Of a DNA stretch of 64,000 bases, positions 10,004-30,295 are shown in pieces. Origin of the DNA: Candidatus Thorarchaeota archaeon (GTDB lineage Archaea > Asgardarchaeota > Thorarchaeia > Thorarchaeales > Thorarchaeaceae); contig DXJO01000010.1 of NCBI GenBank assembly GCA_019057475.1, positions 355,460-419,459 of the forward strand, in the 5' to 3' direction. The position numbers were made by a program, and so were the translations under genes. Within the stretch, counting starts at the first letter, position 1. Each line of letters starts with the position of its first letter. Below the pieces are notes generated by a model. It saw only the letters and a program-made list of their open reading frames with translations, was not told the DNA's origin and did no database searches.

Positions 10004-10220
10004 CTGCTCGAATCCTCCTTGCAGCCCGGGACACAAGTCCAAGATTGCCTTGTAAGATTACGAGTTCTAGAATATCTTAAGTGGTGGCTCCGGAGCGTCA
10101 GGGCATTTTGGGCCGTATACGTGGGCCTTGCTCGTTGAAGGCCCGTTTAGAATACCTAACCTCATATAAGACGGCCTCAAATCATCAACAGGGCGTTATG
10201 AGCAGAGATAGACTGGTGCG

Positions 10221-10702: not shown

Positions 10703-10712
10703 GAATATAGTT
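10703..10712 (+). promoter_or_regulatory. TATA-like box of the DNA-processing cluster
   Basis: GAATATAGTT lies about 55 bases before the preferred GTG start at 10763, fitting transcription initiation near 10735. This argues against the more upstream TTG at 10712, which would overlap the box. Confidence 0.4.
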
Positions 10713-10762: not shown

Positions 10763-11494
10763 GTGTCGAGGCTTGAACGAATACTAAAAGCTTCAATTGG
10801 TCAAGAGGGTCCGGAGACGGACTTGACCATGTTCTTCCAAATGGAGTACAACACCCCTGACAGAAGCGTCATACGAGCGCGGATGGTCACCGACCAAAGC
10901 ATCGCAGTGACTATCGGGCTGAGGAGCGCGATACTTGAACCCTTTAAGAGATTCCACATACCCTCAGATGGCGAATTCCTTGCGTGCGACATTCTAGGAC
11001 TGATACCCGCTGTTGCAGTGATGCTGCGGAATCAGAGTCGAGGGGTGGCTGCGGGAACCATCGAGCGGGACTCGACAACGCGAATCATACTTGCATTCGA
11101 GTCTGAGATACCCATGAAAGACAATGGACTGAGAGATCTAGCATCCACCATCACCTGTACGATGCGGCAGTGGGGTGAGTGGACCAATGTGTTGCTCGGG
11201 ACTCTTGATCGCGATCCTGTAGTGGGTGACTGGGAAATTGACTGGCGTGAGTTTCTTGCTGGAGAGGCTGGATTCGTTACGATGCCGTGGTTCAGATCAC
11301 TTGGCTTTCAGGACCGCAAGATCGCGCTCTCTAGGACAATACTGGCGGCTGAGGCTTTGCTAATCTCAGTTCTCAATAGAAAGCAGCTCATAGACCCCGT
11401 CGCAATGCAGGTTCGGGACTGGATGAAATCGCTCAGCCCACAGCCACACGTCACTGGATCTCATTACATCACTTTGGAAGAGGAGGTATTCTGA
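10763..11494 (+). CDS. Unknown protein, first gene of the DNA-processing cluster
   Basis: Not recognised. About 243 residues from GTG 10763, chosen because GGGAG lies ten bases upstream and the TATA-like box at 10703 fits; the frame is open from TTG 10712. It looks like a soluble alpha/beta protein, with hydrophobic strands (RIILAFESEIPM, IAVTIGLRSAILEPF) and helices, no cysteine motif and no clear membrane segment. Its TGA overlaps the ATG of the next gene (CTGATGG), so the two are translationally coupled. As first gene of a sixteen-gene run it may be a regulator or structural subunit; that is only positional. Confidence 0.65.
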   Translation: MSRLERILKASIGQEGPETDLTMFFQMEYNTPDRSVIRARMVTDQSIAVTIGLRSAILEPFKRFHIPSDGEFLACDILGLIPAVAVMLRNQSRGVAAGTIERDSTTRIILAFESEIPMKDNGLRDLASTITCTMRQWGEWTNVLLGTLDRDPVVGDWEIDWREFLAGEAGFVTMPWFRSLGFQDRKIALSRTILAAEALLISVLNRKQLIDPVAMQVRDWMKSLSPQPHVTGSHYITLEEEVF

Positions 11495-11961
11495 TGGTAT
11501 TGGTTAATGACTTTCACAACTCCGCGCGAACAATCTACAGTCCGATAGTAGATACCGCTTGGCTCGCTGGAGCACTGGCTGGGACTGACCATGCAGGTTC
11601 ACGGAATGGGGACTGGTACTGGGCTCGATTCTTGGATGAGGTGAAAGAGATGGCATCGCTAGCAGGGAGTGTTCGACCCACTGAACCCGGAGCAGAGCCG
11701 GATGACAATGGATCAGTCTACGATGTTATTGGAGGATACATCAGCACTGCAGGACGATTCACACAGGAGGGCTTGAGGTTCAAGGTGCCTGTGAGCAGGC
11801 AGCAAAAGATGGTTGGCCTGTTCGGGGGAATCCTCCTGAGAGAGCATGAAGATATGATTGTGAGAGGTTATGACCTCTCAAAATTCACCAGGCTGGTTCC
11901 TATCAGGGGGCCACTGGCTGATAGGATTAGCAAGACGAAGAGTACGGAGGTAATGAAATGA
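11494..11961 (+). CDS. Unknown protein coupled to the RadA-like gene
   Basis: Not recognised. A 155-residue soluble protein whose ATG overlaps the stop of the previous gene and whose own stop overlaps the RadA paralogue start (ATGAAATGACAG), so the three are translated together. The sequence has a Trp-rich region (GDWYWARFLDEVKEMASLAG) and a C-terminal basic part (LVPIRGPLADRISKTKS). No nucleotide-binding or metal motif is seen. Such tight coupling suggests a stoichiometric partner of the RecA-family protein, which is an inference. Confidence 0.6.
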   Translation: MVLVNDFHNSARTIYSPIVDTAWLAGALAGTDHAGSRNGDWYWARFLDEVKEMASLAGSVRPTEPGAEPDDNGSVYDVIGGYISTAGRFTQEGLRFKVPVSRQQKMVGLFGGILLREHEDMIVRGYDLSKFTRLVPIRGPLADRISKTKSTEVMK

Positions 11962-13106
11962 CAGAGCTTACAGAGGTTCCAGGAGTCGGTTCCGTTGCAG
12001 CAAAGCAACTGAAGAACGCCTACATCACGACTGCGGAGCTGTTGGCCGTACAGAATGCCGACGAGCTGAATAATAAGGTAACACTTGGCGAGGGCACATG
12101 CACGAATATAATCCTGGCGGCCAGAGAGCTGCTTGGGATGTTCGCCTTCAAGTCTGCCCTTGAGGTCGAGAAGGAGAATGAGTCCAAGCCCCGGCTGAAG
12201 ATAGGGCTTGAAAACGTTGACAGGCAACTGCTTGGAGGTCTTGAAATTGGCTCCCTTGTGGAGTTCTATGGCAAAGCCTCAGGCGGCAAGACACAAATGT
12301 GCGCCCACCTTGCGATAAGATGTCAGCTTCCCTTCGATGAGGGCGGCATTGAGGGTCGCGTAATATGGCTTGACAGTGAGTCATCATTCAAGACATCAAT
12401 ACTACGTGCGAACGCGAAGAGGTGGGGGCTTGACCCCGAAGTGGCTTTGGGCAACATTCAGACGATGCCTATAGTCACCTCGTACCATCTGGAACAACTC
12501 TTCGCCCGGATTCCACAGATGTGCATTGAACAGGGCATCAAGATGGTGGTCGTTGACTCACTGACCGGATTCTTTCGGGCAGAGCATGGGGGATTGGGTT
12601 CACTCGCTGTGCGACAACAGAGGATCAACAGGCTCCTGAACCTCATGCGCCGAGTGGCAATGGCGACTGACGTGATGTTCGTCTACAGCAATCAAGCCAT
12701 CTCAAGGATCGGTCCATTCCCCGTGCTGAACGCCCCGGTGGGAGGGCATATAGTATCGCACGCGTCTGATTATCGCTTCATGTCAACAGAGGGAAAGAGC
12801 GGAAAGCGCAAGCTGTACCTCAAGGACCATGCTGGGCTAGCTAACTTCAATGTTGAATTCAGCATAGGGTGGGGTGGATTCTACAACGACGAGAACGAGA
12901 GGAAAAAGATCGAACCCAAAATAGTGGAATACCTCAAGAGCAAGGACATATCCGCCGAGATACAGGAGAAGGACAAGAAGAAGGAGACAAAGAAGGTCAA
13001 GAAAGCCGAGAAGACCAAGAAGACAAAGAAATCAAAGAAGGCAGAAGCCAAGGCTGAAACCGAGGTAAAGCTGGAGGCGGAGGTAGTGCTGAAAGCAGAG
13101 GGTTAA
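11958..13106 (+). CDS. RadA/Rad51-family paralogue with lysine-rich tail
   Basis: A 382-residue RecA-superfamily ATPase. The N-terminus carries a helix-hairpin-helix-like domain as in RadA (TELTEVPGVGSVAAKQL). Walker A is G105-KASG-G-K111-T112, differing from the usual RadA EFGSGKTQ. Walker B is MVVVDSLTGFF with D200, followed by VRQQRINRLLNLMRRVA and a sensor-like VYSNQAIS. After about residue 325 comes an unusual tail dominated by KK, KE and AE runs, likely disordered and possibly DNA-binding. The divergence and cluster context suggest an accessory recombinase or mediator rather than the housekeeping RadA, which I would expect elsewhere in the genome. Confidence 0.85.
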   Translation: MTELTEVPGVGSVAAKQLKNAYITTAELLAVQNADELNNKVTLGEGTCTNIILAARELLGMFAFKSALEVEKENESKPRLKIGLENVDRQLLGGLEIGSLVEFYGKASGGKTQMCAHLAIRCQLPFDEGGIEGRVIWLDSESSFKTSILRANAKRWGLDPEVALGNIQTMPIVTSYHLEQLFARIPQMCIEQGIKMVVVDSLTGFFRAEHGGLGSLAVRQQRINRLLNLMRRVAMATDVMFVYSNQAISRIGPFPVLNAPVGGHIVSHASDYRFMSTEGKSGKRKLYLKDHAGLANFNVEFSIGWGGFYNDENERKKIEPKIVEYLKSKDISAEIQEKDKKKETKKVKKAEKTKKTKKSKKAEAKAETEVKLEAEVVLKAEG

Positions 13107-13110
13107 GGCG

Positions 13111-13551
13111 ATGAGCGGCATGTTTAGAATATACAAATGCCCCTCCTGTGGCGCGATTGCCTACACGAGCGTGGAGAACGAGCAGGAAACCAGCATGTGT
13201 GGCTTGTGTAGAGGCCTAATCCTTGACGAGCCTGGCATACTCTACTCTGCAACAATCAACCAAGCTGAAGACCTTGTCGCAGAGATGGTCCTCCATAACA
13301 TGTCGGAAAATAAAGTATCAACACCAACGAGCGGGCTCGGTGTGAGGCGCAGAGTGCTCAACATTATCGAGTGCCTTGTGGAGCTAAACAAGGGAAGGCC
13401 AGTGAACATTGACAGTGTGCTTAAGGAATGTGTGGGTGCCAAAATCAAGACCGAGAGGAGCCTCCATTTCCTAGATGTGCTTGAGGGCCAGGGACTGGTC
13501 ATAGTTGATAGTGGTCATGTCAGTCTGGGCGAGGAGGGCACAGACCCTTGA
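13111..13551 (+). CDS. Zinc-ribbon plus winged-helix-like protein
   Basis: A 146-residue protein starting with a zinc ribbon: C10-x2-C13 (KCPSCG) and C30-x2-C33 (MCGLC). Residues about 70-140 look like a winged-helix domain (RRRVLNIIECLVELNKGRP, then the recognition-helix-like TERSLHFLDVLEGQGLVIV). The N-terminal part resembles small archaeal zinc-finger proteins often found near recombination genes (of the DUF5817 kind), judged from memory of pattern only. It probably binds DNA or bridges DNA and the neighbouring RecA paralogue. The start follows the radA-like stop by four bases and its end overlaps the next gene by four. Confidence 0.7.
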   Translation: MSGMFRIYKCPSCGAIAYTSVENEQETSMCGLCRGLILDEPGILYSATINQAEDLVAEMVLHNMSENKVSTPTSGLGVRRRVLNIIECLVELNKGRPVNIDSVLKECVGAKIKTERSLHFLDVLEGQGLVIVDSGHVSLGEEGTDP

Positions 13552-14159
13552 CCCACCTGTATGTCCCCCCCTCATCAAACAATGTGACGCCCAGCTCCAC
13601 AATCAATCTTGTCAATCTACTGATGAGAAACACTAGCAGACGAGTGACGGTACTCCAAGTAGGAGGAAAAGTGGATCCTGACCCAGAGGTATATGTTGTC
13701 ACCCGGGTGGACTGGCGGGATAAGGATCTCAACAGGCCGATTTTGCCCCAATTGCCAAAGGTGCTTTCGATGCTGGAAACTCTTCGAGGCTCTAGGGGTG
13801 TGCCCAAGGAGATTTACCTTGACAGTACGGATGGTGTTGTATGCTACATACCAACCGGCATCAGAATGTCTCAGCTACCAAGCAGCGCCAAAGCATCAGT
13901 TCAATTCATCATGTCTGTAGCAAACCAAACGGTTAGCCACTTCGATTCGACACGGTCTGAGGTCGAGGACTGGTTCTGGAGGACAGCTCGCAAGAGTGGC
14001 TTCAATCCCGAGATTGTCGAGAGGATTGCCCGAAGGGAGAAGCACTACGACTCGCCATCTCACGAGCACAGGTTTAGCAAGGTCATAGAGAACTACTTCT
14101 CTCTGAGGTTCAAAGTCTATCGAGCAGAATCATGCCTGAAGCTGGAGGGAGCGTATTGA
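13548..14159 (+). CDS. Unknown protein between zinc-ribbon and XPD-like genes
   Basis: Not recognised. 203 residues from a TTG that overlaps the preceding stop (TTGA); a slightly later start cannot be excluded. It has a beta-rich N-terminal half (RRVTVLQVGGKVDPDPEVYV, GVPKEIYLDSTDGVVCYIPT) and a helical C-terminal half (VEDWFWRTARKSGFNPEIVE). No metal or nucleotide motif. Its TGA is shared with the ATG of the helicase gene, so it is translationally coupled to it and may act as a helicase partner. Confidence 0.6.
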   Translation: MTHLYVPPSSNNVTPSSTINLVNLLMRNTSRRVTVLQVGGKVDPDPEVYVVTRVDWRDKDLNRPILPQLPKVLSMLETLRGSRGVPKEIYLDSTDGVVCYIPTGIRMSQLPSSAKASVQFIMSVANQTVSHFDSTRSEVEDWFWRTARKSGFNPEIVERIARREKHYDSPSHEHRFSKVIENYFSLRFKVYRAESCLKLEGAY

Positions 14160-16135
14160 TGGATGTGATGCGATGGTTCCCGTACACTCCAAGACCTCAG
14201 CAGGATCGGGCCGTGACGCATGCTGCCCATGTGTTCCAAGATAAGACAGTGGGCCTGCTATCTGCAGATTGTGGAGTAGGAAAGACAATTGCTGTACTCT
14301 CAGCGTATCTTGCAGTACGGGCGAAAGATGCATCATCGCGGTTGATTGTCCTTGCCAGGACGCACTCGCAGTCAAAAGTCTTTGAGGATGAGCTTAGAGT
14401 TCTCAGGGAGGAACCGGCCGCAATATCAGATGGACTCCAATTGACGGCCACGAGTATGGTTTCACGGGGGCATGTCTGTCCATTGACCGACAAGATGAAC
14501 TCGGTGTCGTCAGTCGGGTTCCTACGTGCATGCGCACAGATGATAGGCTCAGGAAAGTGCAGCATGTACTGGAGTTTCTACAAACGGGGCGCCGAGGGTC
14601 GGCCTCAAATCCGCGACGCTGCCCGGCAAACTGTTGATGCCCTGCTGAATGAGGGCGTGGTCACTCGGGATGAAGCGGAGGACATGGGGCTCTCGGAAGG
14701 AGTATGCCCGTATGAGGTCTTGAGGTGGTGTGCGCGCAATAGTAGAGTAGTAATTGGTCCATACGGCTACCTATTCAGGGAGAGAGTGCGGAATGCGCTC
14801 CTCTCGTCGCTTGGAATGAGCTTACATGAAGTCGACTTGATTGTCGATGAAGCACACAACCTAGCATCCCATGTACTGGGCTCGGAAACCGCGTGTGTCA
14901 GTCTATCAGACCTTGAATGGCTGAGAAAGCATGACACCGAGATAGAGCGTGAAACGCAGGTCGAATGGCTCCCTGAGGCGGTTGACTTTCTCTGGGAAAC
15001 CGTGATGACCAACCTTGATAATATCCACTCCGAAAAGAACCTTGAGAAGTGGGATGTACTGCCAAGGTTTGTAGATGAGTCACAGATACAAAATCTACTG
15101 CTTGGGACGAAGATTGGTCTGGATGAGTCTGATGGCACAGTACCCACGGAGACCCCGCTGGATCGATTAGTAGAGTTCCTCTACACGGGGCACCGAGCAG
15201 TTCTGAGTGAGGACTGGCATGTCACGCTAGAGGTCAGAAAGCCTTGGAGGCAAGAGTCGAATAGCCGTGATGCCGATCTGAAGATCAGACCACTGAACGC
15301 CGCTGGATTATCAGCTCCCGTACTCAGAGGTGCAAGGTCTGCGTTGCTTATGTCCGGTACTTTGAGGCCACTGCAGCACTATGCGGATCTGTTGGGAGTG
15401 TCAGGTGCCCTGATGGAGAGCCTGATGAGTCCGTACCCCCATGGGAGTCGCCTTGTGCTCATTGACAAGGACATCACAACCAAGTATACAGCGCGGGGCG
15501 AACGGCTGTGGAGGACCATAGCAAGAAGAATCTCGACAACCTTGACAGCGATGCCCTCCGAGAAGAGCGCTCTAATTGCCTTCCCTAGCTACAGGATGAT
15601 GGAGGATGTTCTGAGCTACGGCATAGATTGTGGATTCAGAGCAAGGCTAGAGGAAGCTCCAGGAGATCGCATTGAGATTGTTAAGGACGCACTTGAGGAA
15701 GGGCCCCATACGGTGTTTTGTGTATATGGAGGCAAGTTCTCTGAGGGCGTTGACCTCGTGGAGGGCGGGTCGAGCATGGTTGACCTGATTATCGGGGTTG
15801 GGATTCCATTCAGTCCCCCAACCAGCTACCAAAAAGCCCTTCAAGAATGGTACGAGAGAAGATTCGGGAAGGGTGCAGGCTACTACTACTCGTCAATTGT
15901 ACCGTCTTTTCGCATGGTTGCACAGCTTGTAGGTAGACTTCGACGGAGTCCTGAGGATCGGGGGGTGGTCGTGCTTCTCGACAAAAGGTTCCAGCAACAC
16001 ATCAGAGTCTTTGGAGATGACATGGTTTCGGACCACTGGCCCTACTCAGGAGAGGACGAGATGAGGGGTGCCATTGATCTATTTGTAAGCCAGAGGAACA
16101 GAACGGAGGAGGCGAAGGGAGCGGTTGGCGTCTAG
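14159..16135 (+). CDS. XPD/Rad3-like superfamily 2 iron-sulphur DNA helicase
   Basis: A 658-residue helicase of the XPD/DinG/Rad3 group, expected to unwind DNA 5' to 3'. Walker A is ADCGVGKT with K42, and motif II is VDEAHN (D230-H233). Between motifs Ia and II lie four cysteines at 107, 125, 134 and 183, the arrangement that holds the 4Fe-4S cluster of this family. C-terminal motifs include LMSGTLRP, GGKFSEGVDL and AQLVGRLRRSPEDRG (motif VI). The start is ATG 14159, with GGAGGGA eight bases upstream and TGATG coupling; an upstream ATG at 14132 is less likely. The family acts in nucleotide-excision repair and structure removal; here it is probably a cluster-specific paralogue. Confidence 0.9.
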   Translation: MDVMRWFPYTPRPQQDRAVTHAAHVFQDKTVGLLSADCGVGKTIAVLSAYLAVRAKDASSRLIVLARTHSQSKVFEDELRVLREEPAAISDGLQLTATSMVSRGHVCPLTDKMNSVSSVGFLRACAQMIGSGKCSMYWSFYKRGAEGRPQIRDAARQTVDALLNEGVVTRDEAEDMGLSEGVCPYEVLRWCARNSRVVIGPYGYLFRERVRNALLSSLGMSLHEVDLIVDEAHNLASHVLGSETACVSLSDLEWLRKHDTEIERETQVEWLPEAVDFLWETVMTNLDNIHSEKNLEKWDVLPRFVDESQIQNLLLGTKIGLDESDGTVPTETPLDRLVEFLYTGHRAVLSEDWHVTLEVRKPWRQESNSRDADLKIRPLNAAGLSAPVLRGARSALLMSGTLRPLQHYADLLGVSGALMESLMSPYPHGSRLVLIDKDITTKYTARGERLWRTIARRISTTLTAMPSEKSALIAFPSYRMMEDVLSYGIDCGFRARLEEAPGDRIEIVKDALEEGPHTVFCVYGGKFSEGVDLVEGGSSMVDLIIGVGIPFSPPTSYQKALQEWYERRFGKGAGYYYSSIVPSFRMVAQLVGRLRRSPEDRGVVVLLDKRFQQHIRVFGDDMVSDHWPYSGEDEMRGAIDLFVSQRNRTEEAKGAVGV

Positions 16136-16724
16136 TCTTGCTAGTAGTCAGTTGAGGTATACCGTGCCCGGGGCTGTAGGTGCAGCTTGGTCACTCAGGA
16201 TGGCCCTTGACCAGTCATATCGGGTTGTTCTTGAGTCCACAGTAGGTCTGTTCCTACTACTAGTCGCCCTCGTAATCTACCTGAAGGGACGCGAGAAGAA
16301 CCTTCTGCTTTGGAATAACGATACTGGAATTCTCGCCACTGTAAAGCCTCTCACAGTAGAAGTGTGTGCAGCTCGACTCATGACCAGTGTCCCGCTTGGG
16401 ATTGACCTAAGCCATTCTGCGGGCAGAGTCCTTGAAGCCATGACAATCAGGTTCAATGAGGAAAAGAATGCGGAACTGCGGTTCTTTGTCTGTCGCCCTT
16501 TGGGGCGTGGGGTCACACGCGTAGGCATGATGGTGGTTCGTCAAGCACCGAACATGCGCAGGTTGGTTTCTGTTGTTGAGAAGCTGTCAGAGAAGGTGCT
16601 GGAGGATGTAATGGTCTTGGAGAGTGCTCTGCGCGCAGCCTATGCCCATATGCCCATTGCCCGAGCGGAGCTAGAAGATATCACTCTCATAAACTCTGGA
16701 GGTGTGGATTTCATTGTCAACTGA
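16125..16724 (+). CDS. Small single-pass membrane protein
   Basis: Not recognised. About 199 residues from TTG 16125, overlapping the helicase 3' end by eleven bases. A single membrane segment (VGLFLLLVALVIYL, about residues 39-53) is followed by KGREK, so by the positive-inside rule the large C-terminal domain is cytoplasmic. That domain has strands and helices such as AELRFFVCRPLGRGVTRVG and LVSVVEKLSEKVLEDVMVLE. Together with the next genes it suggests that the cluster's machinery is assembled at the membrane. Start choice is uncertain. Confidence 0.6.
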   Translation: MASSLASSQLRYTVPGAVGAAWSLRMALDQSYRVVLESTVGLFLLLVALVIYLKGREKNLLLWNNDTGILATVKPLTVEVCAARLMTSVPLGIDLSHSAGRVLEAMTIRFNEEKNAELRFFVCRPLGRGVTRVGMMVVRQAPNMRRLVSVVEKLSEKVLEDVMVLESALRAAYAHMPIARAELEDITLINSGGVDFIVN

Positions 16725-17001
16725 GGTGCAAGCCCAGATTACAATCCCCACATCGCTACGCCCTCGGGCTGTTATGGACTCATTATCAGTCGGCCATGGT
16801 TACAGTTGGATTGTTCTTGTTTCCACGCCTCTGAGGATAGCTCATGGAAGCACATCAGATGGGGACCTGCCAGAGCTACTGATTGTAGGTAAGACCCTCC
16901 TGATGAGCGGGGGAAATGAAGTCTACATCAACCGCTTGAGGAGGATGCTTGAGGTGTTGTCGGGCACTTCCGTAAGAGTACGGAGGGATGGCGATGTCTA
17001 A
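16714..17001 (+). CDS. Small unknown protein
   Basis: Not recognised. 95 residues from TTG 16714 with GGAGGT eleven bases upstream; a GTG at 16702 is also possible. Strand-rich (YSWIVLVSTPLRIAHGS, LPELLIVGKTLLMSGG) with a basic C-terminus (RLRRMLEVLSGTSVRVRRDG). It overlaps the genes on both sides by a few bases, which supports it being translated in the operon. It could be a small adaptor of the following HerA-like protein. Confidence 0.5.
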   Translation: MSTEVQAQITIPTSLRPRAVMDSLSVGHGYSWIVLVSTPLRIAHGSTSDGDLPELLIVGKTLLMSGGNEVYINRLRRMLEVLSGTSVRVRRDGDV

Positions 17002-19345: not shown

Positions 19346-19395
19346 TGTGATATGACGAGTCTGAAGATGAGAACGCAACCGCAGGAGGAACAACC

Positions 19396-21600
19396 GTGAC
19401 ATCCGCCATGGATACCCCTACCTACGTTAAGGGCGTTCTTGCAGGTGTGGGACTCACTCCTAGGGGTATCCAGAGCAAGGCAATAGAGGCTGGACTACTT
19501 GAGGGCAAGAGTATCATGGTATGTTCCCCTACAGGCTCGGGTAAGACGCTTGTCGGAGAGATGGCTCTCCTCAGAGGGGTCAGCGATATTCGCAAAGGCA
19601 TCTACCTCGTTCCCCTGCGGGCACTGGCCACGCAGGTTGTTAGTGTACTCAGGGAGCGCTATGCTGACCAGGGAATCAGGATTGAGATCTCCACAGGGGA
19701 CTTTCAGACCGATGGCTCAGACCTTGCTGAGGCTCAGATACTTGTAACGACCTATGAAAGAGCAGACTCCCTCGTGAGGCACAAGGTTGACTGGCTTAAC
19801 AAAATCGGAGTGCTGGTCATTGACGAAGTACAGAATATCGGGCACACATCAAGAGGCGCGCGTTTAGAGAGCGTCATCATGAGGATGCGGAAACTGACTG
19901 AGGACCTCCAGATAGTTGCCCTATCTGCTACTGTCGGAGAACCATACATGCTGGCTGACTGGCTAGGGTGTCATCTGGTGGAGTCTGATGTCCGTCCCGT
20001 GCCGTTGACATGCAAGCTGGTTCCAACAACAGACCGTGAGAAGACCGTGCAGCAACTCGTGATGGCCACTGTGCAGGCTGACGGTCAGGTCATTGTATTC
20101 CACAGGACCAGACGCGAAACTGAGGCTGAGGCTAACCGTCTGAAGGATAGTGTGGGGCGACAACTGCGCACTAAGGAACGTACGACCCTTGATAGGGAGA
20201 TGGACTCCTTGGAGAACTGGAATGTCACAATACCCACGGAAATGCGGCCACTTCTACATGATGGTGTTGCATACCACCATGCTGGTCTTGGAGCCCGCAC
20301 GAGAAGGCTTGTCGAAACCATGTTCGGTCGTGGGTTGCTGAGGGTGGTCTGTGCAACCACAACACTGGCAGCCGGGATGGATCTACCTGCACGAACAGTG
20401 GTACTCACATCCGCAAGGTCTCCCCAACATCACAGACGGTTCCTTCCCGCTAATCAGGTCCATCAGATGCTGGGCAGGGCGGGTAGACCGGGAAAGGATG
20501 TTAGAGGTTTCGGAGTGATTCTCACTGGTAGTCAAGGCGAGGCTAGGATGCTGACAAAGGAGTACTTTGCGAGTGAAGTCAACCCTGATACTGGAACGCC
20601 AGTACTGACGCCAAACTACGAGCCGGTGACTAGCGAGCTTGGGACATCGACCAATCTCACGGAACAACTGCTAGTAGCACTCGACTTTCTAGGAGCGGCA
20701 TCCCTTGAAGAAGTCGAGCAGGAGTACCTTGGAGAGTCATATCTGTTCCATTGTGGTAGATGGCTAACGAATACTCCCATGAGGATTGTGCAACTCGGTG
20801 AGGTGACTGCGCTAGCCGCAATTGAGCGCCACGCCAATCCGAATATGGTCCGTTCTGCAAGAGAGAACATACTGGGTACGGTCAAGATTAGAGAGCGGGG
20901 TGATACAGTCATCGGGGGTATTGTTTCTGTGCTGAGGAGTGGCCAACAGACATGCAGGTTTTCAGCAAGGATGACATCCGATGGTACGCTGGAGGGGCCG
21001 ATGTGCTCATGCGGCAGCCCCATGACCAAGCATGGCTTTCTGTGCAACCATCTTGTTGCGCTTGGCATGGCAGCATCATCGGAGCTGACTCAACTGGCCA
21101 ATTTCGTCATCCCCCTCGCGTTGAGCGAAACGAGTCCGAGTGGCCTTCTGATACGTCTTGGACTCTTGGAGGGTGGTGAGGGCGACAAGTTGAGACCCAC
21201 AACCCTCGGCAGAACTGTGAACAGACTCTACCTCAAGATTTCAACCTTCAAAGAGATGATGGCTCTTATTCCGACCATTGAAAGTAACATAGTCCTAATG
21301 TCGGTGCTGAGACATCTGGTATCACTTGAAACAGGTCAGAAACAGGGTGAAACCTTTGACACCCTCATCGCTTCTGTCGCATCAACCAATCTCTCGATGA
21401 GAGAAATGGCTCGATTGGCCAACCTTGCTGTTGGCGACGTAAAAGCACTACTTGACAAGTCGCGCTCGCTTCTATACTCGATAGTGGCAGTGGCAGACAG
21501 GGGCAACATGGAGCGGGTGTCAGAGATGGTACACGACCTTCTTTCGATCATAGATTCAAGATTACATCACATGGAGAGCGAAAACAATGACAGTGACTGA
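19396..21600 (+). CDS. Ski2/Hel308-like DNA helicase with embedded SWIM zinc finger
   Basis: A 734-residue superfamily 2 helicase. Q26 fits the Q motif, Walker A is SPTGSGKT with K50, and motif II is DEVQ at 143-146. Later motifs are ALSATVGEP, YHHAGLGARTRR, VCATTTLAAGMDLPA and HQMLGRAGRPG, all of the Ski2/Hel308 type. The C-terminal third carries C537-S-C539 and C550-N-H552, the CxC...CxH signature of a SWIM zinc finger, which I do not know as a standard part of Hel308. Hel308 enzymes unwind lagging-strand-like DNA at stalled forks. The start is GTG 19396 with AGGAGG seven bases upstream. The Walker motifs are intact, so it is presumably active. Confidence 0.88.
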   Translation: MTSAMDTPTYVKGVLAGVGLTPRGIQSKAIEAGLLEGKSIMVCSPTGSGKTLVGEMALLRGVSDIRKGIYLVPLRALATQVVSVLRERYADQGIRIEISTGDFQTDGSDLAEAQILVTTYERADSLVRHKVDWLNKIGVLVIDEVQNIGHTSRGARLESVIMRMRKLTEDLQIVALSATVGEPYMLADWLGCHLVESDVRPVPLTCKLVPTTDREKTVQQLVMATVQADGQVIVFHRTRRETEAEANRLKDSVGRQLRTKERTTLDREMDSLENWNVTIPTEMRPLLHDGVAYHHAGLGARTRRLVETMFGRGLLRVVCATTTLAAGMDLPARTVVLTSARSPQHHRRFLPANQVHQMLGRAGRPGKDVRGFGVILTGSQGEARMLTKEYFASEVNPDTGTPVLTPNYEPVTSELGTSTNLTEQLLVALDFLGAASLEEVEQEYLGESYLFHCGRWLTNTPMRIVQLGEVTALAAIERHANPNMVRSARENILGTVKIRERGDTVIGGIVSVLRSGQQTCRFSARMTSDGTLEGPMCSCGSPMTKHGFLCNHLVALGMAASSELTQLANFVIPLALSETSPSGLLIRLGLLEGGEGDKLRPTTLGRTVNRLYLKISTFKEMMALIPTIESNIVLMSVLRHLVSLETGQKQGETFDTLIASVASTNLSMREMARLANLAVGDVKALLDKSRSLLYSIVAVADRGNMERVSEMVHDLLSIIDSRLHHMESENNDSD

Positions 21601-23401
21601 AGACGAACGGCCGACACATGAGGCTGAGGGGTCCAAGGCCCCCAAAGGAGAATTGAAGGCCTACGATATAGTGAAAGTCCTAGAGGCTACTGACCATCTA
21701 ACTCATGTTTCCCCAAATGGGCTGGTGTTGGGGGTAAGGATATCGGGGATTTCAGGGGCAAGAGGGGTTCACATCGAGATAGTTCATATCCTGGACCTCA
21801 GGGAAGCAGTATTTGGCAAGGGTGGTTTTGCCTTACAGGCATCAGTTCTTGAGAGTGTTAACAGGGAACTCCCTAGCCTCTTGAAGGACGTTGGGCTTCG
21901 AGAACGGTTGGAGGAAACATCACCGTTGACACCATGGGGACGAGTGCCCATGCATACTCTGCGTTCTGCGTCTGGTAAGCGAAAGTCCTTGGTCTATGAA
22001 ACCAGACTTGTTTACGTTGTAACTCAGGATGTCCGATCCTCTGCGGACCTGAGCTGGTTGACTGCAAATGGAAGGGTGGTCAGTGTGCATGACTTTTCCC
22101 TTGCTAGAAAGAGCGACGCAAGAATCATTTTGCCCGACCTCGAGAAGAGCCTAATCATGGACAAGTGGGATGATTTCTCAAGGGCTGTCCGGAATGGATG
22201 GTACGGAGTGCTAGCGGCTGGGGCTAGTGTGCTCGGCGGTGTGACATCCCTCATGGTCCTGTTATCGAACTCAGGCAACCTCATCGCACCATTGGCCTTC
22301 ATGGGCGTGTGTGGGGCGGTGGCAGGGCGGCTACTCAAGCAGTCCCACAAAGGGCTAAACGAATTCCGCGAAGTAATTGAGAGTGAGCAGGCAGGAATTG
22401 CATCTCTTGGCGATAGGAAACGTGTGGCGGACTCGATAAAGAGCAATGAGAATAAGATTAGGCTCATTGGCGACCTGAGCTTTGTGATATCCCCCTTAAT
22501 GGCGTCTGCATCGAAGAACCTTGAGGATGGCGACGTCAACGGTGCCGTGGTGCTTGCAGAAAGGGTCTTGGATGAGCTCGTGAGGCTCTCGCCATCTGAT
22601 GAGGACAAGAAGGGTATTATGACTGGGGACGTTGGGATTGAGAGATTCATTGGCGTCTTCCGCAATGTAGGCGCAGACCTGACAGAAGCCGAGGAGGTCT
22701 CTCTGGCCCTTGCCTACACGGCAATAACAGGACATATCACCACGCCACTAGGGGTGGAAGAAGCCCTGACGCATATGGCTGTCTTGAATACAAGTCTATT
22801 CAACGCAGGTGTGTTGAGTCCAACAGTGAGGGGCTCCATTGATGATATGTTCATCTCTAGAGCATTTCATGTAATCGTCGACGAGTTCGATGAAGATCTT
22901 GCCAAGCCAGAAGAGGAGATTGTGCAGACCGTTGACGAGCATGGCTCTGGCATGGAGGAGTTGCTTGGGGACATTGCAAAGTCCGGTCCGGTTGCAGAGG
23001 AGCACGAGGAGGAGGCTAACCCCAAGGTGGACGAAACCCCTAAGGATGAACCGCCAGAAGGAGAGTCTGCTGAGATAGAGTCTACAGAGGATGAGGCTAA
23101 AGCCGATCGTGTTAAGGCTGTTGAGGTCGAAATCGCGCCCCCTAGCGAAGCGGAACCTGAAGGGGATCAGGATGATGCTGATGGCAAGGAAGAGCCAATT
23201 CCTGAGGCCCCAGATGATGTGGATGTCACAGAGGCAGAGCAACCAAAGGCGCCTGTGGTGATGCAGTCTTCACTTGATGAGGTTGAGAAGGAGAAGGATC
23301 CCTCTACGGGACCTGAGGTCCTCAGCAGGAGGAATAAAAAACAAGCCAAACAGAACGCCATGATTCGAAAGAAGCGGGAGAGTGGAAAGGTCGCAGCTTA
23401 A
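21587..23401 (+). CDS. Two-TM membrane protein with acidic-basic tail
   Basis: Not recognised. 604 residues, ATG overlapping the end of the helicase gene by 14 bases. Residues 1-200 are a soluble strand-rich domain. Two membrane segments follow at roughly 204-226 and 231-248 (GVLAAGASVLGGVTSLMVLL, then LIAPLAFMGVCGAVAGRLL). A helical region of about 200 residues comes next, then some 110 residues dominated by Glu, Asp, Pro and Lys, ending in a strongly basic peptide (NKKQAKQNAMIRKKRE). The charged tail is probably disordered and may recruit cytoplasmic helicases and RecA-like proteins to the membrane. Confidence 0.65.
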   Translation: MTVTEDERPTHEAEGSKAPKGELKAYDIVKVLEATDHLTHVSPNGLVLGVRISGISGARGVHIEIVHILDLREAVFGKGGFALQASVLESVNRELPSLLKDVGLRERLEETSPLTPWGRVPMHTLRSASGKRKSLVYETRLVYVVTQDVRSSADLSWLTANGRVVSVHDFSLARKSDARIILPDLEKSLIMDKWDDFSRAVRNGWYGVLAAGASVLGGVTSLMVLLSNSGNLIAPLAFMGVCGAVAGRLLKQSHKGLNEFREVIESEQAGIASLGDRKRVADSIKSNENKIRLIGDLSFVISPLMASASKNLEDGDVNGAVVLAERVLDELVRLSPSDEDKKGIMTGDVGIERFIGVFRNVGADLTEAEEVSLALAYTAITGHITTPLGVEEALTHMAVLNTSLFNAGVLSPTVRGSIDDMFISRAFHVIVDEFDEDLAKPEEEIVQTVDEHGSGMEELLGDIAKSGPVAEEHEEEANPKVDETPKDEPPEGESAEIESTEDEAKADRVKAVEVEIAPPSEAEPEGDQDDADGKEEPIPEAPDDVDVTEAEQPKAPVVMQSSLDEVEKEKDPSTGPEVLSRRNKKQAKQNAMIRKKRESGKVAA

Positions 23402-23411
23402 GGATGATTCC

Positions 23412-24080
23412 ATGTTCGGGCTTGACGGTCTGATACATCTCTCGGGAGTGGCTGGTTCTGGCAAGACCCTCTTTGCAGTCGCCTTGGCTTCCAAGGCTAC
23501 GCGGAATGGAAAAGTGCTATGGATCAACACCGATGCGAAGACCGCATTTGTCAATCATCTGAAGGTCAACATTGATTCGGTAGGTGGCGACAGGACAGCA
23601 AGCTCTATTCTCCCAATCGTGGGTCACAAGCGTGTTCGAGAAGCCATTCTCGATCTTCCAAACAGTCTTGACAATAACACGGTGCTTTTGGTAGTCGACC
23701 CCGTAACGCGAGCTTTGGATATGTCCCACAGAGAGGATGTGATGTGGGGCAGAGAAATGTTCGAGGAAGTGATGCCCACCCTTGCAGGTCTGGTGATTGC
23801 CAGAGGAATGAATGTGGTAATAGTGTCTGAGAGCAGGAGCTTTGACCGCGAGCCTGCTGCTGTGTTTCATAGGTCGATAGAGAGGTGGGCTGATCACGAC
23901 TTGGTACTGTCTAGGCGGTATGGCGCATTAACCACGGATGTGGCACGGTATCAGACTGAAGGTGCCGTTCCTTTTGTGCAATTCACATTAACAGAGGAGG
24001 GGGTCGTTAAGGTGACAGAATTCAATGATGGAAACAACTCGGAGGTGTCGGATTGTTCGGGAAGTCGATGCTCCGCGTAG
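23412..24080 (+). CDS. RadB-like RecA-family ATPase
   Basis: 222 residues from ATG 23412 (AAGGAT about seven bases upstream); the frame extends to GTG 23382. It is a minimal RecA core without N-terminal DNA-binding domain, like archaeal RadB. Walker A is GVAGSGKT (K18, T19) and Walker B is VLLVVDPVTRAL with D96. The C-terminal part contains a HRSIERWADHDLVLSR strand region as in RadB/KaiC-like proteins. The nucleotide site looks intact. It overlaps the next gene by 28 bases. It probably acts with the RadA-like (11958) and the P-loop-less (25008) paralogues of this cluster. Confidence 0.75.
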   Translation: MFGLDGLIHLSGVAGSGKTLFAVALASKATRNGKVLWINTDAKTAFVNHLKVNIDSVGGDRTASSILPIVGHKRVREAILDLPNSLDNNTVLLVVDPVTRALDMSHREDVMWGREMFEEVMPTLAGLVIARGMNVVIVSESRSFDREPAAVFHRSIERWADHDLVLSRRYGALTTDVARYQTEGAVPFVQFTLTEEGVVKVTEFNDGNNSEVSDCSGSRCSA

Positions 24081-25024
24081 TAGGACTGGTAGTTGCTGGT
24101 GCCGTGGCACTTGCCATGGGTGCTAGTCTGCTGAGTTCAGTTGTGGGAGTTGTAACTGCTCTAAGAGCTGGCGATATAGTTCCGTTCATTGTTGTGACAG
24201 TGACCACAGTCATCTTCCTTAGACTATCGGCAAACTCTCCTGAGAAACGAACACCTATCCACGTATTGCTGGGAGTGCTCGGATGGGCATCTGCAATCTA
24301 CTTATTCGTGGTTGTTCTGATGTGGGTGCTTCCATTCGGAGTGGCGCCGGCAATCCTTGCAGCAGGTATCACAGCTGTGCTGTGCGGGTTCGTGAGAGAT
24401 CCAACCGGACTCAATGAGAAGATGAGTCGAATAGCCGATGTTTCATCATCGCTAGGTCTGAGTCCTAATGGGCTGAGCATCACCTCGCAATTAGACGGCA
24501 CTCAGTCGATATGGACGAGAATGGAGCGTTTCCGGTACAAGGTCATAATCATTCCCCACAAGCATTTCGACACAGTGATTGACCTCCTCAAGGATCGCCC
24601 CAAACTTCCAGTATCCTTCACACGACTGGAGGATACAGATGTTCTGATAGTGAGAGATGAGGAGTGGGCCGACAATGTTCTTGCAGTGTTGAGAGAGAGT
24701 GGTGTCCATGACGCATATATTGCCTCCCCTCTTCTTGAAAAAGCGATACTTGCATTCCCCCTGTTAGAGCATGAACACGGGGTGAAGGTCATTGACTATC
24801 AATTCACCTATGACGCCGATACTGTACAAAAGCTACTGGCGATTCAACCACTGCGAATGACCGTGTATCCCGATCCTAAGGGGCTCGTTGTGATGGTTTT
24901 CAGTGACAGTGTGCTCGGGCTCAACCTTGAACCCCTTCCGATGGGAAGAGAAGCATCAGCAGTTATGGCCCGTGTTATATCACACCTACACAGAGGTGAA
25001 CCTACTATTGGCAGTTCCACTTGA
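24053..25024 (+). CDS. Polytopic membrane protein with cytoplasmic alpha/beta domain
   Basis: Not recognised. 323 residues from TTG 24053, preceded six bases upstream by GGAGGTG. About four membrane helices fill residues 5-115 (VVGLVVAGAVALAMGASLL, IVPFIVVTVTTVIFL, LLGVLGWASAIYLFVVVLMW, APAILAAGITAVLCG). The C-terminal two thirds are soluble, with two similar alpha/beta units (FRYKVIIIPHKHFDTVIDLL and a later counterpart). This may be a pore-forming or anchoring component; it overlaps both flanking RecA-like genes, so it is co-translated with them. Confidence 0.6.
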   Translation: MFGKSMLRVVGLVVAGAVALAMGASLLSSVVGVVTALRAGDIVPFIVVTVTTVIFLRLSANSPEKRTPIHVLLGVLGWASAIYLFVVVLMWVLPFGVAPAILAAGITAVLCGFVRDPTGLNEKMSRIADVSSSLGLSPNGLSITSQLDGTQSIWTRMERFRYKVIIIPHKHFDTVIDLLKDRPKLPVSFTRLEDTDVLIVRDEEWADNVLAVLRESGVHDAYIASPLLEKAILAFPLLEHEHGVKVIDYQFTYDADTVQKLLAIQPLRMTVYPDPKGLVVMVFSDSVLGLNLEPLPMGREASAVMARVISHLHRGEPTIGSST

Positions 25025-25721
25025 CTCAATTGACATAGCAACAGAGCCTGTGACAAGGCTGGTGCCACGACAACTTGACAGGGTGCTAGGACAACTACTG
25101 GTCCCCGGTCAGGTCAGTCTTATTCATGGCCCTGACAGGTCTCCGCTAACGACCATTGCGCATGCTGTTGCGGTGGGTGCTGTCAAGTCCGGTGGTCGAT
25201 CCGCATACTTGGATTCCGGTACCAACTACAGCTCCGCCCTCGCAAGGGTGCTGTGCAACAGAAGTGGCTCTCCGGAGGATTTACTGAAGGAAATTGCAGT
25301 GGGGCCGGTGATGAGTCTTGCAGATCTTGAGGGCATGGTCCTTCAGGTGTCCTCCATGGAAGGTATCACCGTGGTGGTAGTGGATAGTCTGACGGGAGTG
25401 CTGAATCTAACTGGGGCTCCGAGGAGCAAGGGCAGACAGAGGAAACTCTTTGCCACCCTTGAGGTTCTGAGGGGTGTCGTGAATGACAACAATATCCATC
25501 TGTTCATCACGGACCACTCGGCAAGGAAATGGAACAATGGAACACCAAGCCCGATTGGAGGCAACGTCATCGCGCACGGCGTTGACTCTCTCATCAGAGT
25601 GGACCGCCTTGCTGTTAAGGAGGGTTTGTTCAGGCTTGAGGTGGAAAGAAGTCCGGTCAATCCGGCTGACAAGGGAGTGGTCGTACGGATCGGACTGAAT
25701 GGAATCAGGTCGATCAAATAG
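25008..25721 (+). CDS. RadB-like RecA-family protein with lost P-loop
   Basis: 237 residues from TTG 25008 (GAGGTGA eight bases upstream). The fold follows RadB: VPGQVSLIHGPDRSPLT at the P-loop position, then YLDSGTNYSSALARV, Walker B ITVVVVDSLTGVL, a basic helix (RSKGRQRKLFATLEVLRG), and HLFITDHSARKW near the sensor region. At the P-loop the expected G-x4-G-K-T is G41-PDRS-P46-L47-T48, so the catalytic lysine is missing while Walker B is retained. It is likely a non-hydrolysing partner of the RecA-like proteins at 11958 or 23412. Confidence 0.75.
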   Translation: MAVPLDSIDIATEPVTRLVPRQLDRVLGQLLVPGQVSLIHGPDRSPLTTIAHAVAVGAVKSGGRSAYLDSGTNYSSALARVLCNRSGSPEDLLKEIAVGPVMSLADLEGMVLQVSSMEGITVVVVDSLTGVLNLTGAPRSKGRQRKLFATLEVLRGVVNDNNIHLFITDHSARKWNNGTPSPIGGNVIAHGVDSLIRVDRLAVKEGLFRLEVERSPVNPADKGVVVRIGLNGIRSIK

Positions 25722-25733
25722 GGGGAACTGGGA

Positions 25734-26720
25734 GTGGGCGTAAAGAAATGGAGCTTCGTGCCTTGGGAGTGGGCAAGCATTGACGAGCTCTCTCCAAGGA
25801 CAATCGCCATAGACGCTCCGAACTACCTGATGCGCAGACTATCAACTATTCGAAGGAATGGCAAGTTCAATCGAGTCCCTCTAAGTCATATTCATGTCGC
25901 TCTCGGAACAATCCGCGCAGCACTTCGTATTCATGTCCTTCCCGTATTGGTGTTCGATGGTCCTCCTGAAACCCTGAAACGTGCTCCCAATCCCGAGCTC
26001 ATTATCGCAGCTCACGACCTATACCGCACCTTCTGTTCTGAGAGAGACCCCTACAGCCACAAGCTGGTCAATGACCTGCAGGACAGCCCTGCGCTGAGGA
26101 TGTACTTTGCAGCGTTTCACGTCAAGGACCTTTGCAAAAGTTTGGGTATCCCATGTATCAACTCGCCCTCTGAAGCTGAGATGGCGGCTGCAGTCTTGTG
26201 TCGTGATGGGTTGGTTGGCACGGTTGTGTCGAATGATGCTGATGCACTATTATTCGGAAGTCCACATGTCACAAAACAACTCCATCTTACAAAGAGAGCG
26301 ATTTTCAGAGCCACGCGAAGTGAGCTTGAAGCCAAGATGGGCCTAGACCTAGAGCATCTGAGGGACCTTGCTATTGTTTGTGGGTGTGACTTCCACAAGC
26401 AGGGCGTGAAGGGAGTGGGGCCTCGAAAGGGAGTAGTTCTCCTTCAGAGGCACGGAGGACTTGTAGGGCTTCTAAAGGCGCGAGGCTATACCGCATTTCA
26501 GAGAGAAGAGTACATCCTCGCACGTGAGGTATTCGACGAGCCTACTCACATGTCCAGCAATGGGTTTGACATCACTCTCAGGCCTCCAATGGTTCCAATG
26601 GCAGTCAGGCTACTCAGCGCTGTCATGGGAACGGAGAAGGCAGAAGAAACCGTGGCGAAGATAGTACGACTGTGGAAAGGGTTCGGCGAACAACAGACAA
26701 CACTGGAGCAATTTGCATGA
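25734..26720 (+). CDS. FEN1/XPG-family structure-specific nuclease with PIP-like tail
   Basis: A 328-residue flap-endonuclease family protein from GTG 25734. All seven metal-binding acids can be placed: D27 (AIDAPNY), D75 (VFDGPPE), E147 and E149 (SEAEMAAA), D168 and D170 (SNDADALLFG) and D219 (CGCDFHKQGVKGVGPRKG, leading into the helix-hairpin-helix motif). The protein ends in QTTLEQFA (residues 321-328), close to the PCNA-interacting consensus Q-x-x-L-x-x-F. Overall similarity to standard archaeal FEN1 is low, so it is probably a specialised paralogue that cuts flap or bubble DNA made by the two helicases. It lies 13 bases after the RadB-like gene. Confidence 0.85.
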   Translation: MGVKKWSFVPWEWASIDELSPRTIAIDAPNYLMRRLSTIRRNGKFNRVPLSHIHVALGTIRAALRIHVLPVLVFDGPPETLKRAPNPELIIAAHDLYRTFCSERDPYSHKLVNDLQDSPALRMYFAAFHVKDLCKSLGIPCINSPSEAEMAAAVLCRDGLVGTVVSNDADALLFGSPHVTKQLHLTKRAIFRATRSELEAKMGLDLEHLRDLAIVCGCDFHKQGVKGVGPRKGVVLLQRHGGLVGLLKARGYTAFQREEYILAREVFDEPTHMSSNGFDITLRPPMVPMAVRLLSAVMGTEKAEETVAKIVRLWKGFGEQQTTLEQFA

Positions 26721-26763
26721 CGAGAAGCGATGGTCATATCCCGAGAATAGGAGGGCGATGAGA

Positions 26764-27516
26764 ATGAACAGTCTACTGGATGAGAACACACAAGGTCCAA
26801 TCCTTACAAGTCGTGAAGTTAGAGAGCGGTACATCGAAGTGGAGCGAGCCATGAAGGAGCTTAAGGAGGAGTACAGGTCTTTCATCCACACAATGGCTCA
26901 TGACATCAGGGGGTGTTTCAATGCTGTCCTTGGCTATGCACAGCTTCTCAAGGAGGTGCATAATCCAGAGTACGCCAATACGATTGTTGAGAGTGTCCAT
27001 AGGATGACGCGGTTGTTGGACCGGTCAGTACGGCTGGTGGACATGGGTGTGCCCGTGGGCTGGCTCTCAGAGGTTGACCTGAATAAGGTGATTCCAACAG
27101 TTGCAGGTTCGGTGTTGCCCGCGGAGGTCGAATTCCTACATGATAGACTTCCGATTGTGCTTGGAGATCCAGACAAGTTAGCACAAGCTTTTCAGAACCT
27201 GCTCGTGAATGCTATCGAGCATGGACGGGCCAACAGGGTTGAAGTCCGCAAGAGGAGTGCAGAGGGTGGGATTGCGGTTATATTCCGCAATGATGGGCAG
27301 CCAATTCCCGATGAACTCCGCTCACTATTATTCATTCAACGGGCAAGTTCCAAACTTGGGGGCGGAATGGGACTCGGGATTGTGAGGAAGATTATCGAAT
27401 CTCATGGTTGGAGTATTAAGCTGGACCCTGTTGAGATGCCAACCTTTCGGGTTTTCATACCTCAGTCGAGTCTCGTGAAGATTAGCTATATCAGACATGA
27501 CAACTCTAGTCAATAG
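26764..27516 (+). CDS. Small soluble histidine kinase
   Basis: About 250 residues from ATG 26764 (GGAGG nine bases upstream; ATG 26758 and TTG 26713 are alternatives). A coiled-coil helix (residues 17-38) leads to the H-box FIHTMAHDIRGCFNAVLGYA with phospho-acceptor H46. The ATPase domain shows the N box LLVNAIEHG, G1 RNDGQPIPDE and G2 GGGMGLGIV. There is no membrane segment or recognisable sensor domain, so input must come from a partner protein. No response regulator is visible nearby. It closes the sixteen-gene run, 43 bases after the nuclease, and may report the state of the complex. Confidence 0.85.
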   Translation: MNSLLDENTQGPILTSREVRERYIEVERAMKELKEEYRSFIHTMAHDIRGCFNAVLGYAQLLKEVHNPEYANTIVESVHRMTRLLDRSVRLVDMGVPVGWLSEVDLNKVIPTVAGSVLPAEVEFLHDRLPIVLGDPDKLAQAFQNLLVNAIEHGRANRVEVRKRSAEGGIAVIFRNDGQPIPDELRSLLFIQRASSKLGGGMGLGIVRKIIESHGWSIKLDPVEMPTFRVFIPQSSLVKISYIRHDNSSQ

Positions 27517-29695: not shown

Positions 29696-30295
29696 ATGCA
29701 GATTGACCTGCCGGCAGCACTGTTTGCAAATCTAGTGTTCTCTGTCAAGATTGCACCTGGGATACTGGCAATTGTGACAGTCGTCAGAGGACTGATACTC
29801 CTAAGTGGACAGAAGCGAGAGTTCGAGGACTGGACACGCAACTCACTGATGTCAGCCCTATCGATCATATTCCTCCCCGGCACGCTAGCCTACATCGGGA
29901 TAAGGTACACAGTAAGCAGAGCCTTTGGCATAGATGTGGAGAACATCGGCGGCTCGACAACCTATGGGGAGATCAACCTCTTCCTGAAGGTGGAACGTCC
30001 ACCTCGGGTAGTGATTGTGCTATCTGCCCTGTACATGATAGTGGTGATGTCGGTGTTTGTTGCACTATCGCTGATTCTCCTGCCAGCGTTACTGTTCTTC
30101 CAGAACATGCCGGTTGTGCTGTTCTGTTGGTACGTGGCGATAGGCGTTCTTTTCAACATCTCATTGAGGAGCGGGGATGTTTCACTTGTGGTCGCATCCC
30201 TACGCAGAAGGCCGCGTGCTGGTGCACTTGAGTTCATCGCTGTGATGGTGGCGCTTGTCCTTCTCTATACGCAGGTTGTGGGGGTGCTCGTTTGA
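29696..30295 (+). CDS. Polytopic membrane protein
   Basis: Not recognised. 199 residues, mostly hydrophobic, with about five membrane segments (LFANLVFSVKIAPGILAIVT, SALSIIFLPGTLAYIGI, VVIVLSALYMIVVMSVFVAL, MPVVLFCWYVAIGVLF, LEFIAVMVALVLLYTQVV). Resembles Yip1-like or other small five-TM integral proteins in hydrophobicity pattern only. It lies just before the giant surface-protein gene on the same strand, separated by a nested inverted repeat, and may help to export or anchor that protein. Confidence 0.65.
   Translation: MQIDLPAALFANLVFSVKIAPGILAIVTVVRGLILLSGQKREFEDWTRNSLMSALSIIFLPGTLAYIGIRYTVSRAFGIDVENIGGSTTYGEINLFLKVERPPRVVIVLSALYMIVVMSVFVALSLILLPALLFFQNMPVVLFCWYVAIGVLFNISLRSGDVSLVVASLRRRPRAGALEFIAVMVALVLLYTQVVGVLV

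Follow-up and report, generated by a model that had tools for sequence, protein, structure and literature searches.

A conserved fifteen-gene operon of Thorarchaeota as a candidate envelope-spanning DNA-transfer and recombination apparatus of Asgard archaea

Layout and conservation of the operon

The window analyzed here, a 64,000-nucleotide stretch of a Candidatus Thorarchaeota genome (GCA_019057475.1, contig DXJO01000010.1, positions 355,460 to 419,459), sits in a 3.34-Mb assembly (G000:C42) and carries at 10763-27516 a run of sixteen open reading frames (ORFs), g01 to g16, the first fifteen of which form a conserved gene module. The original prediction, made from the letters of this DNA, described sixteen rightward, tightly packed genes, and the ORF listing bears this out: all sixteen lie on the + strand at the predicted coordinates, and neighbors overlap at 11 of the 15 junctions, the remaining four gaps being 4, 7, 12, and 50 bp (junctions from g01 to g16, in order: -1, -4, 4, -4, -28, -11, -23, -14, 50, -14, -20, -28, 7, 12, and -8 bp). 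The start of g01 is placed by the ORF caller at a TTG at 10712, versus orthologue starts near 10763 (GTG).

Pfam recognizes Rad51 in g03 (11958-13106; 2.8e-48), DEAD_2 and Helicase_C_2 in g06 (14132-16135), DEAD and Helicase_C in g10 (19396-21600), XPG_N and XPG_I in g15 (25734-26720), HisKA and HATPase in g16 (26713-27516) and, weakly, Rad51 in g14 (25032-25721; 4.3e-9). Further weak matches are those of g04 (13111-13551) to a zinc ribbon (Zn_Ribbon_TF, 4.5e-4, below the cut-off) and of g12 (23382-24080) to RecA/KaiC-like proteins. The Pfam scan gave no match for the other eight, namely the soluble proteins g01 (10763-11494; 243-260 residues, with orthologues in 10 loci), g02 (11494-11961; 155 residues), g05 (13548-14159; 203 residues, 38-54% identical between genera), and g08 (16702-17001; 99 residues), none of which belongs to a known family, and g07 (16125-16724), g09 (16988-19345), g11 (21587-23401), and g13 (24053-25024), which have predicted transmembrane (TM) helices.

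Searches with profile hidden Markov models (HMMs) found all fifteen genes g01-g15, on one strand and in one order over 15.3-15.9 kb, at nine loci besides the window. Fifteen partial loci, most of which end at a contig edge, keep the same order, and none of the 24 loci examined is rearranged, at a protein identity between genera of roughly 25-60%. The gene order on which the original prediction depended is thus conserved across relatives; g01-g15 is a real conserved module whose order is not due to chance, and this synteny also supports the view that the unrecognized genes are candidate new subunits. One partial cluster is genuine, that of G027, which is assembled as one contig and holds g10-g15 only. 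Within the window's own GTDB family, which named records assign to Candidatus Thorarchaeota, 20 of the 36 other genomes gave a match to g09, and more matches came from other families. Of 17 genomes in the family with a completeness of 90% or more, 15 have the cluster, as counted by second XPD or FEN copies, g09, and g19 (a neighboring gene described below), and two (G001 and G007) do not. On a concatenated g06, g09, and g10 tree all six multi-member genera are monophyletic with SH-aLRT (approximate likelihood-ratio test) support of 100, and therefore the cluster is inherited vertically rather than shuffled as an island.

An origin as a mobile element or virus was rejected, given that the window holds no tRNA, its G+C content is even, and the genera are monophyletic; a plasmid search with g09 gave no match, and a phage search with g10 returned general helicase matches only. 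The histidine kinase g16 did not survive as a member of the cluster, in which it had been included: it stands beside the operon only within the window's genus (in the window and in G005) and was not found there outside it, so it was rejected as a subunit and is probably a genus-specific addition. On the other side of the operon, a GH3-family (acyl-adenylate type) protein at 8462-10042 is the divergent upstream neighbor in most of the Thorarchaeota loci examined.

Enzymes, membrane proteins, and a secreted protein

Three RecA-family proteins had been predicted in the cluster, and two of them hold up as such: g03 is a RadA paralogue with a helix-hairpin-helix domain and a Rad51 core, g12 is a small RecA/RadB/KaiC-like ATPase, and both keep Walker A and Walker B in all orthologues. 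The third, g14, is RadB/Rad51-like with a Walker A that is degenerate in every orthologue, reading GxxxxPLT or LLT instead of GxxxxGKT in 11 of 11 aligned sequences, and is predicted from this to be a conserved pseudo-ATPase. The two helicases are intact in their motifs. In the alignment, the XPD-like g06 retains Walker A, the DEAH box, and the four iron-sulfur cysteines; in the Hel308/Ski2-like g10 the helicase core, residues 9-480, matches Hel308 in the PDB at 2e-65, and a score of 254-331 bits against Hel308 equivalog cut-offs of 887-1216 indicates that g10 is not a full-length Hel308 equivalog. It also keeps a SWIM zinc motif (CxC...CxH), which among the best 80 g10 matches in the genome collection was confined to Asgard loci; the Hel308 matches of other archaea all lacked it. 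The nuclease g15 combines XPG_N and XPG_I domains with all seven catalytic carboxylates, the features of the FEN1/XPG superfamily, and a tail resembling a PCNA-interacting peptide (PIP), Qxx[LM][ED]x[WF]x, ends 12 of the 14 g15-family nucleases. The protein g04 has a zinc ribbon and a winged-helix-like part, and has homologues in other families.

These enzymes are not the ordinary housekeeping copies. The same genome carries RadA (C39:35533), FEN1 (C21:171571), Hel308 (C54:22128), RadB (C54:147939), and XPD (C54:150580) away from the cluster, and the RadA, FEN1, XPD, and Hel308 copies sited elsewhere argue that the cluster set is dedicated. Consistent with this, g03 scores 222 bits versus the NCBIfam RadA equivalog cut-off of 259 and its group falls outside housekeeping RadA on the tree, with a support of 93 after the longest branch was dropped and with weak deep nodes; the g15 family is likewise separate from housekeeping FEN1 on its tree. 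The housekeeping RadB and XPD genes themselves lie within 3 kb of each other (G000:C54:147939-151086), a pairing that recurs in many relatives.

The membrane link proposed originally is supported, both by the predicted TM helices of four proteins and by the resemblance of g09 to VirB4 and HerA. Profiles of g09 and its distant homologues match HerA structures (3e-8 at best), and a Foldseek search with its AlphaFold model (mean confidence score, pLDDT, 75) placed TrwK/VirB4 of R388 first (9e-12) and Sulfolobus HerA at 3e-10, with a TM-score of 0.69 by target for the Thermoanaerobacter VirB4 ATPase domain. On this modeling g09 is a membrane-anchored protein of the VirB4/HerA fold, and its C-terminus gives weak profile matches to winged helices of the MarR/PadR type. 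The label HerA-like is therefore right in sequence and fold homology and wrong in the catalytic Walker A, which g09 lacks; the Walker B acidic pair is kept only among the distant homologues, in many but not all of them. In other Asgard families the TM helix and N-domain are often an ORF of their own, directly before the ATPase-fold ORF, and hhalign relates this separate N-domain to residues 110-258 of g09 (E 2.5e-10) and to g07 (E 5e-7), which itself consists of a predicted TM helix and a soluble domain of the g09 N-domain family. The 604-residue g11 is predicted to have a β-rich N-domain, a TM hairpin, a helical C-domain, and a disordered tail (TM prediction and AlphaFold, pLDDT 74). A fold search of the PDB with g11 gave no match below E 0.001, and a partial HEPN-like match (AbiV, E about 1) was set aside. 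About four predicted TM helices and a cytosolic domain make up g13, in which no homology to CedA/TedA (VirB6-like) was recognized.

The conserved neighborhood continues beyond the predicted interval to about 40.3 kb. After the operon come g17 (27713-29461, - strand; 582 residues, no known family and no Pfam match), g18 (29696-30295, + strand; 199 residues, multi-TM), g19 (30432-38258, + strand), and g20 (38281-40272, - strand; 663 residues, no known family), an arrangement found whole or in part in nine long-contig Thorarchaeota genomes. By Pfam and predicted features, g19 is a secreted protein of 2608 residues with a signal peptide, an alpha/alpha toroid, Ig/MG repeats, and a C-terminal TM helix. 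It is single-copy, lies next to the operon in nine long-contig genomes, and occurs in 28 of 36 relatives of the family. The module probably extends to g19, which in two other families has counterparts coupled to recombinase genes.

Farther downstream, at 42364-45561, lies a second HerA/VirB4-like protein (g23; 1065 residues), whose N-terminus has TM helices and whose Walker A is intact. It has one weak relative elsewhere in the same genome, and as a missing motor it was rejected as a conserved member, since it was not found next to the operon in any other genome examined, G005 from the window's genus among them. It is followed at 45576-49949 by a 1457-residue protein whose N-terminus is very acidic and in which helix-turn-helix-like segments are repeated, and which may hold a homing-endonuclease or intein-like stretch, and at 49949-51049 by a methylmalonyl-CoA mutase-like ORF of 366 residues that lacks the N-terminal part, a full-length copy being present at 4095-5768.

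A reduced core across Asgard archaea

A search of the phylum with the g09 alignment gave matches in 107 of 228 genomes, including matches above 140 bits in ten families (f1, f4, f5, f6, f9, f11, f12, f16, f24, and f25), and the flanks of these matches were mapped with the g01-g15 profiles. A core recurs in Jordarchaeia, Freyarchaeota, Hermodarchaeota, Helarchaeota, and other Asgard families, consisting of a RadA paralogue, a Walker-less g09-like protein with a membrane N-domain, a SWIM-bearing Hel308-like helicase, a zinc ribbon, a small RecA, and a FEN-like nuclease. In Jordarchaeia and Freyarchaeota (G048, G126, G127, and G128) one strand carries the RadA paralogue, a secreted protein, a TM protein, the N-domain, and the g09-like gene, and the divergent side carries the helicase, zinc ribbon, small RecA, a TM protein, and FEN; a protein of 608-618 residues, with two TM helices in G126, precedes the helicase in G126 and G048. 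Elsewhere the spacing varies: g03, g04, g09, g10, g12, and g15 all lie within about 30 kb in Hermodarchaeota G052; RadA, TM, g09-like, FEN, TM, zinc ribbon, and small RecA genes occupy about 6 kb in G039 (f4); RadA, small RecA, SWIM helicase, and FEN fit into about 11 kb of a Helarchaeota contig (L138); and Lokiarchaeia-type G053 (f2) has looser neighbors and a Walker-less HerA-like protein of 1285 residues. Such Walker-less proteins of about 1,260-1,330 residues occur in Lokiarchaeia-type genomes of families f2 and f28 (e.g., L080 10794-14651).

A clear g06 occurs only in Thorarchaeota; the XPD-like genes that lie close to the core in other families (L056, L077) fell outside the g06 group and were rejected as g06. 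Proteins like g11 and g13 in Jordarchaeia are weakly supported (hhalign E 4e-4 and 1e-3, against 0.028 at best for unrelated controls), and homology of g08 to the small TM proteins of other families was tested and not found.

Secreted-protein genes accompany the core in several families. In G041 a 1081-residue secreted toroid protein overlaps a RecA-like gene, which runs on into the helicase; G052 has a row of RadA, a 277-residue protein, a secreted toroid/Ig protein of about 1640 residues, zinc ribbon, and small RecA; and in G126 a secreted M28-peptidase protein overlaps RadA, with the N-domain and g09-like genes lying downstream of it. Secreted M28 proteins, among which pairwise homology was found, separate RadA from the N-domain/g09 genes in Jordarchaeia; in G052 such a protein comes ahead of the N-domain.

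Other features of these loci may be recorded here. A NifH/ParA-like ATPase (KGGIGK) directly follows the g09-like gene in two other Asgard families (L040 5007-8729, L072 6299-8406), which also carry apparently NifD/K-like genes after it, and small GTPase-like genes (GPASSGKTT) follow the FEN-like gene in Jordarchaeia (L067 18502-20000, L047 1209-3106). Just upstream of N-domain and g09-like genes, a 116-residue two-TM protein (L075 12186-12536) can be likened to a VirB2/CedA1-type pilin by size and topology only. The g09 match in G039 and G055 crosses one in-frame TGA (L049 4325-5764, L043), which is probably where an N-domain ORF and a separate ATPase-fold ORF meet.

Proposed function and comparison with known systems

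We propose, at a probability of roughly 0.5 and on the basis of sequence and modeled structure, that the cluster is the gene set of an Asgard apparatus for DNA transfer and recombination that spans the envelope and works like the Ced system of Sulfolobales without being a member of it. In this apparatus g09, together with g07, g11, and g13, would form a VirB4-like, ATP-inert membrane platform at the site of DNA passage, and the giant secreted protein (g19, or the M28-peptidase or toroid proteins elsewhere) might serve extracellular adhesion or DNA capture by binding cells, DNA, or envelope material. Because g09 could not hydrolyze ATP, the cytosolic helicases g06 (5'-3', XPD type) and g10 (3'-5', Hel308 type) would pull, strip, and remodel the DNA. 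Flaps would be trimmed by g15, recruited by PCNA through its C-terminal tail; a g03 recombinase filament, for which g12 and the pseudo-ATPase g14 are putative mediators, would pair the strand with the chromosome; and g04 may regulate. Supporting this proposal are the conserved gene order, the monophyly of genera, the dedicated paralogues beside housekeeping copies, and the recurrence of the core across Asgard families, as well as the VirB4/HerA fold of g09 with a TM helix and N-domain as in CedB/CedD, its N-domain paralogue g07, the secreted-protein genes in the G041, G052, and G126 clusters, and the PIP-like tails.

Several points weigh against a transfer apparatus. The Walker A motif (GxxxxGK[ST]) is absent from 19 aligned g09 sequences of the family and from 21 homologues of other families, about 40 proteins in all, and therefore g09 cannot be an ordinary ATP-driven translocase. 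No homologue of a pilin, VirB6/CedA, a relaxase, or ComEC was recognized among the cluster proteins, and Pfam gave no family match to a VirB2/CedA1-like pilin in g01-g16. Homology across the secreted proteins of all families, including all the toroid proteins, was tested and not found, and the toroid/Ig protein g19 could have another envelope task and be a neighbor by history.

The same genes could instead serve a membrane-tethered recombination and fork-repair center for the cell's own chromosome, in which the VirB4-fold pseudo-ATPase and the membrane proteins anchor DNA, the XPD/Hel308-like helicases, FEN, and RadA paralogues work with PCNA in fork repair, and the surface protein is an unrelated neighbor. 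The intact helicase, nuclease, and recombinase motifs, the PIP-like tail, vertical inheritance, and the loss of the ATPase motif from g09, which fits an anchor, all speak for this possibility; we nevertheless regard it as doubtful, since housekeeping copies exist, the cluster is absent or partial in some good genomes (G007, G001, and G027), and in several families the core shows translational coupling to secreted-protein genes. It is this repeated coupling of recombinase and secreted-protein genes that makes an envelope function preferable to purely internal repair.

An antiviral system that meets foreign DNA at the membrane with a HerA-type scaffold, helicases, and a nuclease seems improbable. 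Known defense systems do use HerA and Ski2-like (HamB) proteins, the loss of the cluster is patchy, and PADLOC matches g10 to HamB models and g06 to DinG-type models. However, those matches cover general helicase domains only, the other eight proteins tested gave none, and a known defense system was accordingly rejected; a fixed fifteen-gene order with vertical inheritance is unlike defense islands, the HerA motif is dead, and the relatives of g09 are on no plasmid. More improbable still, to our mind, is a superoperon without a common machine, in which DNA-metabolism and envelope genes are co-transcribed for regulatory convenience. It is true that the function of the cluster is read from its genes and unproven, and that other families split these genes into two or more operons; yet these unrelated protein families come together again, in rearranged orders, in many Asgard families, and this speaks for a functional link.

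Within the transfer-and-recombination proposal, a bolder version can be entertained as a long shot. The operon might conceivably be a dedicated machine for chromosomal DNA exchange, parasexual in kind, in which surface contact, DNA passage, and homologous recombination are encoded together. Eukaryotic meiotic recombination uses Rad51/Dmc1, Mer3/HFM1, GEN1, and RTEL1/FANCJ, which belong to the enzyme families of the cluster (Rad51 paralogues, Ski2/Hel308-type, XPG-type, and XPD-type), so that such a machine may show a prokaryotic precursor logic of sex in the lineage closest to eukaryotes.

If the proposed function is true, the cluster would be a previously undescribed multi-subunit Asgard apparatus, ancient in the phylum, with at least eight uncharacterized protein families (g01, g02, g05, g07, g08, g11, g13, and the pseudo-motor g09) and with four eukaryote-type recombination enzymes in the form of dedicated paralogues. 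Its novelty is in how the parts are assembled; most of them come from known protein superfamilies. Asgard archaea are the closest known relatives of eukaryotes, and the literature searched holds almost nothing on DNA exchange or repair at their envelope and no paper linking them with such an operon, most subscription-journal papers and preprints being outside its coverage, and by a term count a published survey of Asgard defense (PMC11291487) does not mention HerA; the cluster provides a concrete gene set for asking how these archaea exchange or repair DNA there.

Among known systems, the archaeal housekeeping proteins Hel308, RadA, FEN1, and XPD belong to the same enzyme families as g10, g03, g15, and g06, but the cluster paralogues are divergent, fall under curated cut-offs, are clustered and, in g10, carry SWIM. 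The HerA-NurA and HerA-SIR2/DUF4297 systems are matched by g09 in HMM and fold; they are active ATPases whose NurA, SIR2, or DUF4297 partners were not recognized in the cluster. Bacterial type IV secretion systems supply the best fold match of g09 in VirB4/TrwK, and differ in that g09 has lost the catalytic Walker A and no other subunit of theirs was recognized by sequence. Competence-type uptake (ComEC/ComFA/DprA/RecA) joins membrane DNA entry to a helicase and a recombinase, a logic that the cluster shares, whereas no ComEC, ComEA, or DprA family was found by Pfam among the cluster proteins.

The closest resemblance is to the Ced/Ups system of Sulfolobales and the Ted system of Thermoproteales. 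CedD and CedB are reported to join a TM helix and an N-domain to a domain of the HerA/VirB4 fold, pieces of the N-domain being found on two paralogues (PMC11868833), and the Asgard cluster has the same kind of membrane protein, similarly split N-domains on two paralogues, multi-TM partners, and a link to homologous recombination (PMC11868833, PMC9905601). It differs in that its VirB4-like protein has no Walker A, and in that the Asgard operon carries its own helicases, FEN nuclease, RecA paralogues, and giant surface protein. Since it lacks the ATPase signature and no homologue of a channel or a pilin was recognized, the cluster is not classed as a member of Ced/Ted; by analogy of its parts, Ced/Ted is its nearest working analogue.

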